Shown one piece after another: positions 1-50,630 of a DNA stretch of 50,630 nt. The position numbers and the translations under genes were made by a program. The stretch's first letter is position 1; the number at the start of each line of letters is the position of its first letter. Location: NCBI GenBank assembly GCA_017472605.1, contig JAFUPV010000075.1, forward strand, positions 1-50,630, written 5' to 3'. The DNA is from Lachnospiraceae bacterium. GTDB lineage: Bacteria; Bacillota; Clostridia; Lachnospirales; Lachnospiraceae. The notes beneath the pieces are model-generated. The model was not told the origin of the DNA and did no database searches. It saw nothing but the letters and a program-made list of their open reading frames with translations.

Positions 1-105
1 CGCCCTCGCGCGGCTCTCTGCTATACGCCTCCGAAACTACGTTTCGGATCGAGGCGTTCGCCGCATGAGTGCGCAAGCGCCCTCGCGCGGCTCTCTGCTA
101 TACGC
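1..105. repeat. GC-rich tandem repeat with stem-loop (left array)
   Basis: Two copies of a GC-rich block starting CGCCCTCGCGCGGCTCTCTG lie at 1 and 78, a period of 77 bp; the array may continue left of the window. Between the copies, 27-55 can fold as GCCT-CCGAAAC, loop TAC, GTTTCGG, a four-base bulge, then AGGC. The segment CGCCGCATGAGTGCGCAAGC before the second copy closely matches the array at 50419-50630. The composition is clearly richer in GC than the AT-rich sequence that follows at 106-180. No open reading frame here looks real. Function is unknown. Confidence 0.85.
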
Positions 106-211
106 ACATTATAACAAATTGAGGTTATGTCTGTATATAGCAGAAATTTTATATATCTTCGAAAATTTCATGTACCCTGTTCCTCTGCGTGTTGTATGGC
201 AGGTGGGGGGA

Positions 212-303: not shown

Positions 304-2748
304 TTAAACCGGATATCCAGTAAGGAAGCCGGATAGTTTCGTTTCTTTTCCCTTCGCAAGTTCCACCAGCTGCCGGTTTCCGCGGCCGATTCTCACGGAA
401 ACAGTTGTGTCCTTTGTGCTGCGAAGAACTGCGTTTGCCCGGCCGTTCTCCCAGCTGATATCTACCAGAATTCCGCCGCGAGCTGCCAGTCCCCTGACAA
501 AACCGCGCTCCCACTCACTCGGGATTGCCGGCAGGATCACCAGCTCACCGGCATGGCTCTGCAGCAGCATCTCCGCCACGCCTGCCGTATATCCAAAGTT
601 TCCGTCAATCTGGAACGGCGGATGGGCACAGAGCAGGTTGGCAAAGACGCCGCCGCCATGAGTCGATACCCGCTGATGGGACTCCACCAGCTTCATCATC
701 CGCTTCGCCAGCTTTCCGGCATGCTCGCCGTCTTCCAGTCTCGCCCACATCAACAGCTTCCAGCTCAGGCCCCAGCCGGTTCCCTCATCCCCGCGGCGCT
801 CCAGACTGATTCTTGCCGCGTCACGAAGCTCTGGCGTCTTTGCCGTGATTCCGCGTCCCGGGTGAAGCTCATACAGGTGGGTAAGGTGGCGGTGCTCCAC
901 CTCATTCTCTTCAAATTCCTCATTCCATTCCAGAATCTGTCCGAGGCTTCCAATCTTCATCGGTGCGATTTTCTGAAGCTGTTCTTTTACACGAAGCAGG
1001 TACTCATCCGTTGTCGTTTCTTTCCCTGCTGCCATCTCCTCATCCAGCACCTGGCACGCCTCAATATAATCCAGAAACAGATTCCGGATGATCGCCAGCG
1101 TATTTTCCGTATACAGTGCAACGGAAACCCGCTCCTCTCCCTGCAGGAACTGATTTTCCGGAGAAGTAGCCGCAACCACTGCCAGCCCGTCCTCCGTTTC
1201 CTCCAGCATCTGAGAGCAGAAAATCACATTTTCCCGCAGAATCGGCATGATTTCCCGCAGATAGTCCCGATCCTGCGTAAACAGGTACTCATCATACAGG
1301 TTCCGGCACATCCACGCCGCGCCAAAGGGCCAGAACGCCCACATGGCTCTTCCGTCCGCCGGAGAGGTTTTACGCCAGATGTCCACGTTATGGCAGCATG
1401 CCACACCGTCACAGGCAAACATGCGCCGCGCCGTCTCTCTACCCTGTGCCATCAGCTCCCGGTTCATCCGCACAAGCGGCTCCGTCAGCTCCGGCAGATT
1501 GCAGGGGCCGGCAGGCCAGTAGTTCATTTCCGTGTTAATGTTCACCGTGTAATCCGAAAACCACGGCGGTACAATCTCCTTGTTCCAGATTCCCTGCAGA
1601 TTGGCAGCCTGAGTTCCCGGTCTGGAACCGGAGATCAGCAGATAGCGGCCAAGATGAAACAGCAGCGGAATCAGACTCTGATCGTCTGGGTCTTTTGCAA
1701 ACTGCGCCAGCCGTTCCTGCAGATCCATCTCCTCTTTGCCGCTTGTTCCCAGTTCAAACTGCACACGGGAATAGTAGCTCTGATAGTCCCGGATGTGCTC
1801 ACAAAGCAGCTCCTCCACCGGACGGACAGCCTGTTTCATGTCTTCTGCAAGCGCAGCTGCAGGATCCACACCTTCCAGAACCGGATGCTTCGCAAAACCA
1901 TTGAAGCTGGAGCGAACGGCAAACACCAGCGTCAGGCTGCAGATTCCCTGGTATGCAATTCCATCTGCAGAAACAGTGCAGACCGCAGGTTTTCCGTTTT
2001 CCGACAGAACCTCTGCTTCACCAGACCGGTCTGCCGAACCATCCAGCTCTGAATTCACAGCCTGTCTGCACGCATTGTCTTTCGTCTCCGCAAAAATCCG
2101 GCCCCAGCCCTGATAGAGCGCGCCATTCTCCTCTGGCTTGTCCGACATGTGAATAATTTTTTCCCGATCCGGCCGGCTCTTGACCGCACCGCTTCTTCCC
2201 GGGCACTGACCCCAGAGCGTAAAGCCATCCTCCCGATATTCCTGCCGGTTTAAAAACTGGCCGTCTGCACCGATTTTTACAGAAAAATCCTCTTCTGCTT
2301 CAATCCGGTAAATCATCACCTGAGCCGGTGCGCTGATGAAACAGGTGTGCGTGTAACATGCGTCTTTGCATCGGTATGTTTCCTTTGCAACAGCCGTCTC
2401 CAGATCCAGCTCTCTCCGGTAATCACACATTTCGTTCTGCTGCATCTGAACGTTCAGGTTTCCGAATGGCAGATACATCTGCACATCCTCCGTCACCAGC
2501 ATCCGCTCTTCCAGGTAGTGCATTGCCTCTGCATACCGGCGCTCCCGCACCAGCTTCTTTGTTTCCTTCAGTTCCTGTGGTGTAAATCCCTTCTGCGTAT
2601 CTGCCGGATAGCCGCTCCACAACGTATCCTCATTAATCTGGAGAATCCGCTTCTCTCCGTCTCCATATACCATCGCGCCCAGACGGCCGTTTCCAACCGG
2701 AAACCCTTCCTGCCACACAGTCGCCGGCTTATTAAAAATCAGTTTCAT
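304..2748 (-). CDS. GH95-family glycosidase (alpha-L-fucosidase type)
   Basis: An 814-residue protein, the usual length for GH95, whose members hydrolyse alpha-L-fucosyl or alpha-L-galactosyl linkages. The N-terminal beta-sandwich has the [11 protein letters not shown] signature. In the (alpha/alpha)6 barrel, NINTEMNYW near residue 400 holds the two conserved Asn, TSPEN near 529 the catalytic Glu, and QIDGNFG near 713 the conserved Asp, so the active site looks intact. The start was set at the ATG at 2748 rather than the upstream GTG at 2766, because AAGGAG lies 9 bases before it. No signal peptide is visible, so the enzyme is probably cytoplasmic and acts on imported oligosaccharides. It has its own promoter and terminator. 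Fucose versus L-galactose specificity cannot be read from the sequence. Confidence 0.88.
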
Positions 2749-2788
2749 ATCTCCACGCTCCTTCACGCATCATTCTTTCTATAGATCG

Positions 2789-12737: not shown

Positions 12738-16043
<3,306 letters not shown>

Positions 16044-20752: not shown

Positions 20753-20938
20753 CAAACGTGTTACTGGCCGGTTCGACTGGATTCCGGGCTAATCCTGCCA
20801 AACGTATCGCCGGCCGGTTCGACTGGATGCCGGGCCAATCCTGCCAAACGTGTCGCCGGCCGGTTCGACTGGATGCCGGGCCAATCCTGCCAAACATGTC
20901 GCCGGCCGGTTCGACTGGATTTCGGACTAAGCCAAACG
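20753..20938. repeat. 46-bp tandem repeat array, 4 units
   Basis: Starts of CAAACG-type units fall at 20753, 20799, 20845 and 20891, with spacings of 46, 46 and 46 bp; the last unit is a shortened 42 bp. Each carries GGCCGGTTCGACTGGAT and most carry CCGGGC-AATCCTGC. Within a unit GGCCGG and CCGGGCC can pair across a 12-base loop. The array lies in the 348-bp gap between the solute-binding protein gene and the kinase gene, so it would be transcribed with them. It is not a CRISPR array: there are no unique spacers. Confidence 0.9.
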
Positions 20939-48004: not shown

Positions 48005-50389
48005 TTATAATGTAATTATTACACTTCCATTCTCTTCCATCCGGATTCGATACAGATTTCCTTCCTGCTCGACCACACTGTTTTTACAGCTGATCTGGTA
48101 GCCATCAAATTCCTTCGGCAGCTGCAGCCACATTTCATGCGCCCGGACTGCCAGCAGATCCGCCTGGAATTTCTGCTTTTCCACATCCCATTTCATGTGA
48201 ACGAAGCCATTCATGTAGCGGAAGGAAGATATGCTTCCTTTCTGCAGATCGGCGGGAAGAGCCGGAAGCAGCTTCAGCAGATCTTCGGAGGAATAGAGAA
48301 CCATTTCCTGAAGCGCATTGACATAGCCCATGATCGCGTCCAGCTGAACAGGAGCCGGATCCATGCAAAGGGAGATGTTCATGCCGCGCCAGTCGTTGTG
48401 GAGACTGAAGAAGTTGTTCGTCAGGGAAGACTTCGCCATCTGGTTGAGACACTGCATTGCAGCCTCCCCATCCTCCAGACGGGCATAGATCGCTGACATG
48501 TGCCCCATGGACCAGCCGGTCTGGGCATCAATCTCACGCAGATCCACAGCTCGCTTGAATGCAGGAAGCAGTTCGCTTTTGTGAAGACTGTTGACCTCAT
48601 AGCCCGGAAATACCGGATAGATGTGAGAAAGATGGCGGTGATCATAGCGCTCGTCAAACCGGTCATCCTGCCACTCGCGGATACCACCGTCTTTGCTGAG
48701 ACGGTATTCCGGGATGGATGCAAGAATTCTGTTCCATGTTGGGATTCGCTCCGGATACAGATTCTGTTCCTTTGCGATTTCACACAGGCTGGTAAAGAAT
48801 TCTTTCACGATTGCCAGATCGATGGTGGAGTTCACAGTCGTCGGCATCGGGTGCGCCATCTGGATGTGACGGGGCGGCATGAAATTGCCCGGTGTATTTT
48901 CCGGAGATACACTTGGATAAAAATGGATGGTTCCATCCGGATAAAATTCGATGAAATCCTCGTAGAAGTCCGCAACTTCCATCAGATACGGCAGCAGAAC
49001 TTCTTTCAGATATGCTTCATCCTTTGTGTACCGATAGTAATTGCAGTAATGCTGCGCAATCCAGCCGGAGGCGCCGACCCAGTTCATGATGACGGGTACA
49101 ACCTGATTGGGAGAGGAAACACCCGGCGTGGTTCCGGCTGTCATGAAGATTCCCTTCATTCCAAACAGATTTTTCGCGTTTTTCTGATAGGTCGGGATTC
49201 GATTATTATAGTACCGATACAGTCCCTTCTGGAATGGCAGCAGATTTCCCGCATAGGTGTGCCAGTAAATCATCTGGGTGTTTTCGTTTGCCATGTTATG
49301 GCTCCAGATCAGATCATATTCCCCGCCCCAGATTCCATAGAGAGGGAATGGATTGGTGCGGTCACTGGTTCCGCAGATGAACAGGTATCGTCCATATTTC
49401 CAAAGCTTCTCAATCAGCTCTGCCGACTGCTTTCCTGCAAAGGCTTCTGCAAGAAGATCCTCATTACAATGATATTTTCCGCGGTACTGCAGTGAGAAAT
49501 CCGCGCTGTTATACCACTTCCTGTGCAGACGGCTGTGCTCTCTCATTAGCTTCTCATAATCCGGTTCAACCGCTTCCAGCTCCAGCATCAGATCAGAAAG
49601 AACCGCTTCCCGTTCCTCTGGTCTGCGCTTGATGAACAGACGAACAAGAACAACGACTTCACTGCTCTGACGGACACGGATTCCCACCGGCGTCCGCTCC
49701 GCGGTTCCGTTTACCGGACAGATTCTGGCTACCGCTCCGTAAATCGTCTGGTCATCATTGAGTGCTGTATATGTAATGTACTGCTCATTCCATTCGATTT
49801 TCTTCGAATCAAAAACATGCTTCGCAATCTTCTCTGCCCGATCGGATCCTCTGTTCTGGTGAATGTCCATGGAAAAAACCAGATTCAGATCCGGTTCGGA
49901 AGATGTGATCCGCTTTACAACCAGGTTGCGCTTGCGTGATACAAAAAGCTGGGAGCATCTCTGGGACTCGCCGTCCTTCCATTCACTTACCGTCTCCGCC
50001 CGATCCATGTAAATTCCCCGGATGTAATTCTCAAAGCCCTTGTTTGGCGCGATCTCCAGTTTCAGATCCGCAACCGGCAGCTGAGACTCCAGCCTGGACT
50101 GATAGTTTTTCTCCCGAAGGGCATTGACCACTTCCCAGCTCGCTTCCCGGAAATTCTCTTCGTCCATTTTCTTTCGAAGACGGACAAACGCATCGCTGAC
50201 ATCCGGCAGCTCGTCCTCACAGCCGTTGTGCCACAGATCGTGGTGCGTCAGCATGGTCGTCTCTTCCTTCACACCGCCGTAAACATTGGTACCGATGATA
50301 CCGTTTCCGGAAACAAGTCCCTCTCTCCACAGGTCATGCCACCAGGTGGACGGGTATCTCATAAATATCGTGTCCTTATTAATTCTCAT
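48005..50389 (-). CDS. Second GH95-type glycosidase, divergent
   Basis: A 794-residue protein with GH95 layout but distant from the one at 304-2748. The N-terminus has WWHDLWREGLVSGNGIIGTN. The Asn-x-Asn pair reads NENTQMIYW (about residue 368), the Glu lies in VSPENTPG (about 495), RHLSHIYPVFPG follows, and the Asp is in VQLDAIMG (about 684) instead of the usual QIDGNFG. The catalytic residues are therefore present in altered surroundings, and a different alpha-L-sugar may be the substrate. No signal peptide. GGAGG precedes the ATG at 50389. The GC-rich repeat array starts only 30 bp upstream, leaving little room for a promoter before it. Confidence 0.8.
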   Translation of the reverse strand: MRINKDTIFMRYPSTWWHDLWREGLVSGNGIIGTNVYGGVKEETTMLTHHDLWHNGCEDELPDVSDAFVRLRKKMDEENFREASWEVVNALREKNYQSRLESQLPVADLKLEIAPNKGFENYIRGIYMDRAETVSEWKDGESQRCSQLFVSRKRNLVVKRITSSEPDLNLVFSMDIHQNRGSDRAEKIAKHVFDSKKIEWNEQYITYTALNDDQTIYGAVARICPVNGTAERTPVGIRVRQSSEVVVLVRLFIKRRPEEREAVLSDLMLELEAVEPDYEKLMREHSRLHRKWYNSADFSLQYRGKYHCNEDLLAEAFAGKQSAELIEKLWKYGRYLFICGTSDRTNPFPLYGIWGGEYDLIWSHNMANENTQMIYWHTYAGNLLPFQKGLYRYYNNRIPTYQKNAKNLFGMKGIFMTAGTTPGVSSPNQVVPVIMNWVGASGWIAQHYCNYYRYTKDEAYLKEVLLPYLMEVADFYEDFIEFYPDGTIHFYPSVSPENTPGNFMPPRHIQMAHPMPTTVNSTIDLAIVKEFFTSLCEIAKEQNLYPERIPTWNRILASIPEYRLSKDGGIREWQDDRFDERYDHRHLSHIYPVFPGYEVNSLHKSELLPAFKRAVDLREIDAQTGWSMGHMSAIYARLEDGEAAMQCLNQMAKSSLTNNFFSLHNDWRGMNISLCMDPAPVQLDAIMGYVNALQEMVLYSSEDLLKLLPALPADLQKGSISSFRYMNGFVHMKWDVEKQKFQADLLAVRAHEMWLQLPKEFDGYQISCKNSVVEQEGNLYRIRMEENGSVIITL

Positions 50390-50418
50390 AGGAAAACCTC
50401 CATTTCATCCGTTCTTTT

Positions 50419-50630
50419 GCCCGCGCGCGGCTCGTTGCTTATGCGGTCTTACTGCAATTCCGCTCCGCTTCATTGCAGCCGCATGCAGTCGCCGCATGCG
50501 TGCGCAAGCGCCCGCGCGCGGCTCGTTGCTTATGCGGTCTTACTGCAATTCCGCTCCGCTTCATTGCAGCCGCATGCAGTCGCCGCATGCGTGCGCAAGC
50601 GCCCGCGCGCGGCTCGTTGCTTATGCGGTC
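50419..50630. repeat. GC-rich tandem repeat with stem-loop (right array)
   Basis: Copies of GCCCGCGCGCGGCTCGTTGC begin at 50419, 50510 and 50601, a period of 91 bp, and the array continues past the window. Within each unit GCGG, a bulge, CTGCAAT, a 13-base loop, ATTGCAG and CCGC can fold into a stem-loop (first copy 50443-50482). The segment CGCCGCATGCGTGCGCAAGCG matches the left array with one or two changes, while the stem sequence is different but still paired. It lies directly upstream of the second GH95-type gene. Confidence 0.9.

Follow-up and report, generated by a model that had tools for sequence, protein, structure and literature searches.

Repeat arrays at the ends of the contig

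Both ends of the stretch of DNA analysed here (the window, 50630 bases, which is the whole of contig C49 in a 75-contig assembly of the host) are occupied by short GC-rich tandem repeats, and the question raised by this locus is what kind of element the repeat is and why it should lie at both ends. A preliminary description had regarded the 77-bp units on the left and the 91-bp units on the right as one family, and had offered three readings of it: a miniature mobile repeat, a structured RNA, or a site bound by a protein. As read from the sequence, window positions 1-105 hold one full 77-bp unit followed by 28 bp of the next unit, and the last 212 bases (50419-50630) hold 2.3 perfect 91-bp units. 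Both unit types were present as claimed and belong to one family of hairpin repeat. The shared GC-rich core, GCATGNGTGCGCAAGCGCNC, occurs three times in the window with at most three mismatches, against 0.05 expected from shuffles, and the variable segments differ between the arrays yet pair (CCGAAAC/GTTTCGG on the left, CTGCAAT/ATTGCAG on the right). A covariance model recovered the units at 44-107, 50475-50538 and 50566-50629 in the window with E values of 3e-16, 1.1e-12 and 1.1e-12, its input having included near-identical copies on contigs C47 and C24.

The arrays themselves are thus real, whereas their placement at both window ends is an effect of assembly, which stopped inside the tandem arrays. 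The left unit type also terminates contig C47, and the right unit type, with one spacer base different, also opens contig C24, so that C47, C49 and C24 can be put forward as neighbours in that order. Read on the minus strand, a unit consists of hairpin A with conserved flanks, then hairpin B, the latter differing between the two window arrays. The features are as follows.

108-113, extended 108-116, minus strand: predicted -10 box TATAAT of the left array, in its extended form TGTTATAAT (promoter prediction)
near 101, minus strand: predicted transcription start of the left array (usual spacing from the -10 box)
44-107, minus strand: first unit of the left array (covariance model, 74 bits, E 3e-16)
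60-91, minus strand: hairpin A of the left unit, a 14-bp stem with a CUUG loop (fold of copies)
30-48, minus strand: hairpin B of the left unit, UCCGAAAC-GUA-GUUUCGGA (pairing in the alignment)
1-30, minus strand: beginning of the next left-array unit, cut at the contig end (the same type ends C47)
50582-50613, minus strand: hairpin A of a right-array unit (covariance model)
50543-50569, minus strand: hairpin B (CUGCAAU...AUUGCAG) of the same right-array unit (sequence)
50491-50522, minus strand: hairpin A of the next right-array unit (covariance model)
50452-50478, minus strand: hairpin B of that next unit (sequence)
50419-50440, minus strand: truncated last right-array unit, upstream of the gene start (sequence)
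50397-50401, minus strand: putative ribosome-binding site GGAGG (sequence)
48008-50389, minus strand: GH95-type glycosidase gene behind the right array (Pfam match)

On C47, a GH106-type gene lies behind the left unit type at the contig end. Another GH95-type glycosidase gene was seen at window 304-2766 on the minus strand, near the opposite window end from the one at 48008-50389. Elsewhere in the window a 27-bp tandem array of 8.2 copies was found at 13638-13859.

Fold of the repeat unit

The repeat is about 75-135 bp long, non-coding and directional, with hairpin A and its flanks taking up about 64 nt. In the stem of hairpin A a neighbouring G.U and C.A, together with a G.A mismatch, are kept by most copies. 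The G.U was found in 26 of 28 and the C.A in 22 of 28 sequences of an alignment of host copies (A1), and in 30 and 28 of the 33 sequences, respectively, of an alignment from other genomes (A2). A1 holds 28 of the 30 host sequences listed, one tandem copy of L053 and the sequence of L072 having been left out, and L071, L075 and L077 having been excluded before that list; A2 was built from 29 loci with 34 matches, 33 of them distinct, the weak match L106 (E 0.082) being kept.

It had been suggested that the fold, rather than the sequence, is conserved. In A1 the covariation score, the number of paired cells and the number of double-change cells were each above 500 of 500 shuffles. Counting against the suggestion, as many double-change pairs arose in 38 of 500 shuffles and as many further pair types in 413 of 500, and the base helix was paired in only 54.5% of cells. 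For hairpin B, aligned over seven of the host loci that follow a -10 box, 94.6% of cells were paired and four of eight pairs had double changes, and further pair types were not in excess over shuffles in these seven loci (469 of 500 as high). Across genera (A2), hairpin A and its base were paired in 91.2% of cells and 13 of 18 pairs had changed on both sides, a number of double-change pairs that none of 500 shuffles reached, in an alignment that had been fitted to the model. Compensatory changes therefore exceed the controls, though not on every measure in A1 and in hairpin B, and the covariance model and alignments bear out the suggestion; the variable stems still pair, and copies in which they no longer did so were not encountered.

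Outside the conserved wobble columns, G.U exceeded A.C by 16 to 3 in the host's own copies and by 11 to 3 in 119 copies listed from other genera. This excess favours the minus strand as the folded one, and we regard it as the more likely structured strand; counting against this, the distinct hairpins of other genera gave only 5 to 3. When the arrays were folded freely, neighbouring units paired with each other, which argues against a simple picture of independent hairpins. The conserved mismatches make binding by a protein, as had been proposed, plausible.

Copies in the host and in other genomes

A blastn search of the host with the left unit gave 31 matches, and the core pattern, at up to three mismatches, gave 45 against 0 for a reversed control. 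With the same unit no match was found by blastn outside the host among 60 relatives, and a covariance model was built for this reason. The model (R1, made from A1), with which 150 of 677 first-look candidates were scored, brought the host to 58 copies at E<=0.01, so that further copies, which the preliminary description had named as a check, are many. R1 matched 71 of 250 sampled genomes of the host's family at E<=0.01, the host included, and 50 at E<=1e-5; in a phylum-wide draw, a few members of which belong to the host's family, it matched none of 397 other genomes at E<=1e-5. In the host's genus the copies numbered 58 in the host, 2-4 in G002 and 0 in G001 with R1, which was made from host copies and favours the host in such counts. 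In another genus, blastn with one copy found none in G279 and G280 and about 30 in G281.

A pattern scan of named genomes returned at least 120 stretches; 80 of those listed came mostly from Lachnospiraceae genera or Clostridia, and included one Emergencia and one Acutalibacter record. The set of copies from other genera holds at least 122, from which the removal of duplicates or of copies short of flanking sequence left 119, 112 or 105 for the separate analyses, and 35 of the 122 listed lie inside an open frame of at least 80 aa by a simple caller, the rest lying outside. The repeat is thus short, non-coding, present in many dispersed copies and mainly intergenic, as is characteristic of a small non-autonomous mobile repeat. 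Head-to-tail tandem copies were found at 6 of 48 host loci and, in other genomes, at L080, L087 and L099.

Several further observations concern the surroundings of the repeat. A phage record (MT835472.1, 77925-77982) has a single copy, seen as one match of 80% coverage, and a viral contig (L341, 8364-8404) has one exact pattern match; a search of plasmids for the repeat gave no match. A second host hairpin repeat, of a sequence near GTGACACGTTCGGTCGGATT and with 144 pattern matches at up to three mismatches against 1 for a reversed control, adjoins several copies (for example on C3, C55 and C66) and forms mosaics with them, and a 46-bp tandem array in the window at 20753-20920 resembles it with three mismatches. 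In L084 and L085, of which L145 and L188 appear to be duplicates, a nearly identical copy lies upstream of a gene that, from the start of its protein, resembles the excisionase of Tn916/Tn1549-type elements. Several records also have conserved copies next to an ABC transporter pair and a ParB-like gene. Given these neighbours, the repeat may travel from genus to genus on mobile elements.

Borders of the repeat and sites with and without it

In other genera conservation begins sharply at TTTATTCC and the left border is TTTATT-like, 72 of 112 listed copies matching a list of TTTAT-like strings at this position. The right end is TTTGACT in 64 of the 105 copies listed, with background composition beyond it, and in the same 105 the right-end lengths behind the core cluster at 20, 48 and 80 bases and TTTAT is not repeated at the right end. 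Sharp ends of the kind expected of a small mobile repeat are therefore seen in other genera. At nine loci of the host that follow a -10 box the right ends are variable, which was counted against mobility. A classical MITE was rejected, as there is no target duplication (the right-end flank is background and TTTAT is not repeated) and the ends, by eye, are not inverted copies of each other.

Copy number and sites were also found to vary among relatives, these relatives being other species or genera. Between rpmA and obgE a host copy follows the rpmA terminator immediately, and at 29 other such loci there was no R1 match within the stretches fetched. In G144 a copy lies directly behind the terminator T-tract of a T-box leader before a pheS-like gene, and the T-box-pheS loci of five relatives have a T-tract with no repeat copy within the fetched stretches, ATT following the T-tract in two of the five. 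G144 and these relatives do not have the same pheS-like gene after the T-box, so that this is no strict before-and-after pair. That the element-free sites come from other species or genera, and not from a pair of strains, was counted against mobility. In L148 and L102 copies lie directly behind a T-tract, between a T-box terminator and the starts of genes that by eye are tyrS-like and pheS-like.

Placement at terminators and -10 boxes in the host

The position of the repeat relative to transcription signals was assessed for 58 of 60 host matches, two having fewer than 40 bases upstream. A terminator-like hairpin immediately precedes 30 of the 58 units and a -10 hexamer 9, one unit having both. 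Ten of the 58 are later units of arrays, one of which carried the terminator flag, and among the 48 array-leading units 29 lie behind a terminator-like hairpin, 9 behind a -10 box (one behind both) and 11 behind neither. The same terminator test was passed by 103 of 600 TTTA sites taken as a control, a comparison in which the test may count T's of the element itself, as it may in the control, and in which the control includes coding DNA. With a stricter terminator test in other genera, 8 of 105 listed copies passed against 11 of 400 control sites, which was counted against such placement, and none of 112 listed copies from other genera had a -10 hexamer at the left border.

Seven of the nine host -10 boxes are extended, with TG one base before the hexamer; counting against their use as promoters, the -35 match is poor at most of these loci. 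For the left array, the promoter scan gave TATACA-18-TATAAT with TG, running from 137 to 108, with 10 of 12 matches where 0.3 were expected. The -10 box of the right array, again TGTTATAAT, lies on contig C24, its junction to the window being the one proposed above, and at this C24 array a promoter scan that required a -35 element found none, a further point against. All nine -10-box loci run into an open frame whose start is preceded by a purine-rich stretch, and the last unit is often truncated and followed by the gene start. Two of them have TAAAATGCTCG in common, which suggests that the -10 box travels with that subtype. In Pfam searches the genes behind the nine arrays matched GH106, GH95, AAA_33, response regulator/LytTR, FMN reductase, Phos_pyr_kin, AAA-ATPase_like/PDDEXK_9 and APH, and one had no match, so that the eight with a match belong to unrelated families. 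The two arrays of the window would, across the contig breaks, be leaders of the GH106-type gene on C47 and of the GH95 gene at 48008-50389. That promoter and gene lie on separate contigs for both counts against this assignment.

Search for a mobilising enzyme and weighing of explanations

Among the proposed options, a mobile repeat fits best by its copies, distribution and borders, and strong differences in copy number together with sharp ends make it a better fit than a riboswitch. The host subset behind -10 boxes also resembles, by sequence, a transcribed leader RNA. An account in which the repeat is a cis-regulatory leader RNA, riboswitch-like or protein-binding, selected for gene control and with no mobility of its own, would explain the strong covariation, the nine copies that separate a -10 box from the start of a gene, and two copies of other genera found in the T-box leaders of genes that by eye are tyrS-like and pheS-like. 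It does not account for downstream genes as unrelated as those listed above, for the 29 of 48 array-leading host copies that follow terminator-like hairpins, or for relatives with no detectable copy, and Rfam gave no match in the window at the gathering score and none at the repeats of 7 loci (of 26 fetched) up to E 5; we consider it unlikely. Less probable still is a type III toxin-antitoxin system with the units as its repeat antitoxin RNA, or a small RNA gene in many copies; we would give this idea hardly any weight. The order of -10 box, tandem structured repeats and gene is what such a system would have, but the downstream genes encode glycosidases, proteins of kinase or phosphotransferase type, a LytTR regulator, an FMN reductase, an AAA-ATPase and one protein with no match; the antitoxin was dropped on this gene content. 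In addition, no terminator was found behind the units in the stretches scanned at two window-related arrays, and most host copies have no preceding -10 box. A kink-turn, domain V of a group II intron and an integron attC site were considered by eye and dropped.

If the repeat is mobile, it might belong to the REP or REPIN elements, with a REP-associated tyrosine transposase (Y1) as the enzyme that moves it. REP and REPIN sequences are described as extragenic, high-copy hairpin repeats (PMC2817692), and conserved stem mismatches are reported for E. coli REP (PMC8266576), features that the mostly intergenic, high-copy hairpin with its kept mid-stem mismatch has in common with them, and a second hairpin family adjoins it at several loci. 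Y1_Tnp, however, had no match in the host, the assembly of which is 95% complete, or in G093, G249, G276 and G278, all of which have many repeat copies, and 30 Y1 loci from other genomes had no significant hairpin A in their fetched flanks (best E 0.34). There is no GTAG tag directly before the hairpin, the 5' flanks being GCAACGA, GCAGCGA and variants, and copies stand head to tail rather than in alternating orientation. A Y1 transposase of the REP type was therefore not supported as the mobiliser, and an origin of this kind appears improbable. No recombinase was found as a recurrent neighbour among the nearest frames of the 122 listed copies; these frames held six groups of at least three related proteins, which by eye were ordinary or accessory (an ABC transporter pair, ParB-like, surface protein, GH1-like and aminopeptidase-like types).

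Comparison with known repeat families

A text search of the open-access literature found no description of this repeat family, the literature on stem-loop families being covered in part, and the comparisons below refer to excerpts of the papers cited. The closest resemblances are to bcr1 and BOX. In those excerpts bcr1 is a small repeat with tens of copies on average, varying in number between strains, with a possible site-specific recombination-like mobility linked to a TTTAT motif (PMC6542083), and is often found in UTRs or intergenic regions of operons (PMC3446304). The host's family is, by description, like it in variable copies and location in UTRs, and its TTTATT-like left border may correspond to the motif; it differs in having such a sequence at one border, discrete right-end lengths and one subtype that starts at the -10 box, and bcr1 is reported as confined to the B. 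cereus group, unlike the Lachnospiraceae repeat. The part of the BOX literature consulted describes a modular element of Streptococcus pneumoniae with its internal module in several copies and a predicted RNA fold, some elements being co-transcribed with genes, and no clear mobilising enzyme (PMC3049150). The Lachnospiraceae repeat is similarly modular, structured and without a clear mobiliser, but it is the whole A+B unit that is repeated instead of a middle module, and the host group is another; that part of the BOX account says nothing of copies lying at terminators or -10 boxes.

Other families are, on the excerpted accounts, more distant. The CGTC-tagged REPs are hairpin repeats without a dedicated transposase, with 8-9 bp stems and a CGTC-type tag, from Proteobacteria and four other phyla (PMC3733652). 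The present hairpin repeat resembles them in that no dedicated transposase was found, whereas its stem is 14 bp, no such tag was seen and it belongs to another host group. PATEs, which are derivatives of IS200/IS605 elements that consist of the ends only, are described as having no target duplication and no terminal inverted repeats, inserting 3' of a short motif and having hairpins near their ends (PMC7290912); the lack of duplication, the short target motif and the end hairpins are shared, unlike a parent IS with these ends, which was not seen among the 30 Y1 loci. We have filed the repeat under neither bcr1 nor BOX, nor as an IS200/IS605 derivative.

A probable mobile hairpin and its possible role

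The reading that we prefer, with a probability of roughly 0.7, is that the repeat is a small, non-autonomous, directional mobile hairpin family, widespread in Lachnospiraceae, a subset of which in the host serves as gene leaders. In arrays that follow a -10 box, transcription would start within the first unit, and the tandem hairpins would for that reason form the 5' leader of the mRNA. Insertion might then supply or retune a promoter, and decay might be slowed, or expression set, by hairpins close to the 5' end. As to how it moves, the repeat may be mobilised in trans by a recombinase, which could read the hairpin, including its mismatches, in single-stranded DNA, and arrays may grow by slippage or a rolling-circle-like step. 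These steps can be joined into a bolder proposal, which we offer as speculation and think rather doubtful as a whole: that the mobile hairpin inserts at places where the non-template strand is laid bare by transcription, after the T-tracts of intrinsic terminators and immediately after promoter -10 boxes, that at promoters it becomes a self-amplifying tandem leader with a ladder of 5' hairpins ahead of unrelated genes, and that it is moved by an enzyme outside the known Y1 REP transposases.

As the repeat breaks assemblies, what it does can easily escape notice. Among hairpin repeats with no known mobiliser it would be a tractable case, and, if the reading of the arrays as leaders is true, a mobile repeat gives promoters or 5' leaders to genes for carbohydrate degradation and to other genes in gut commensals.
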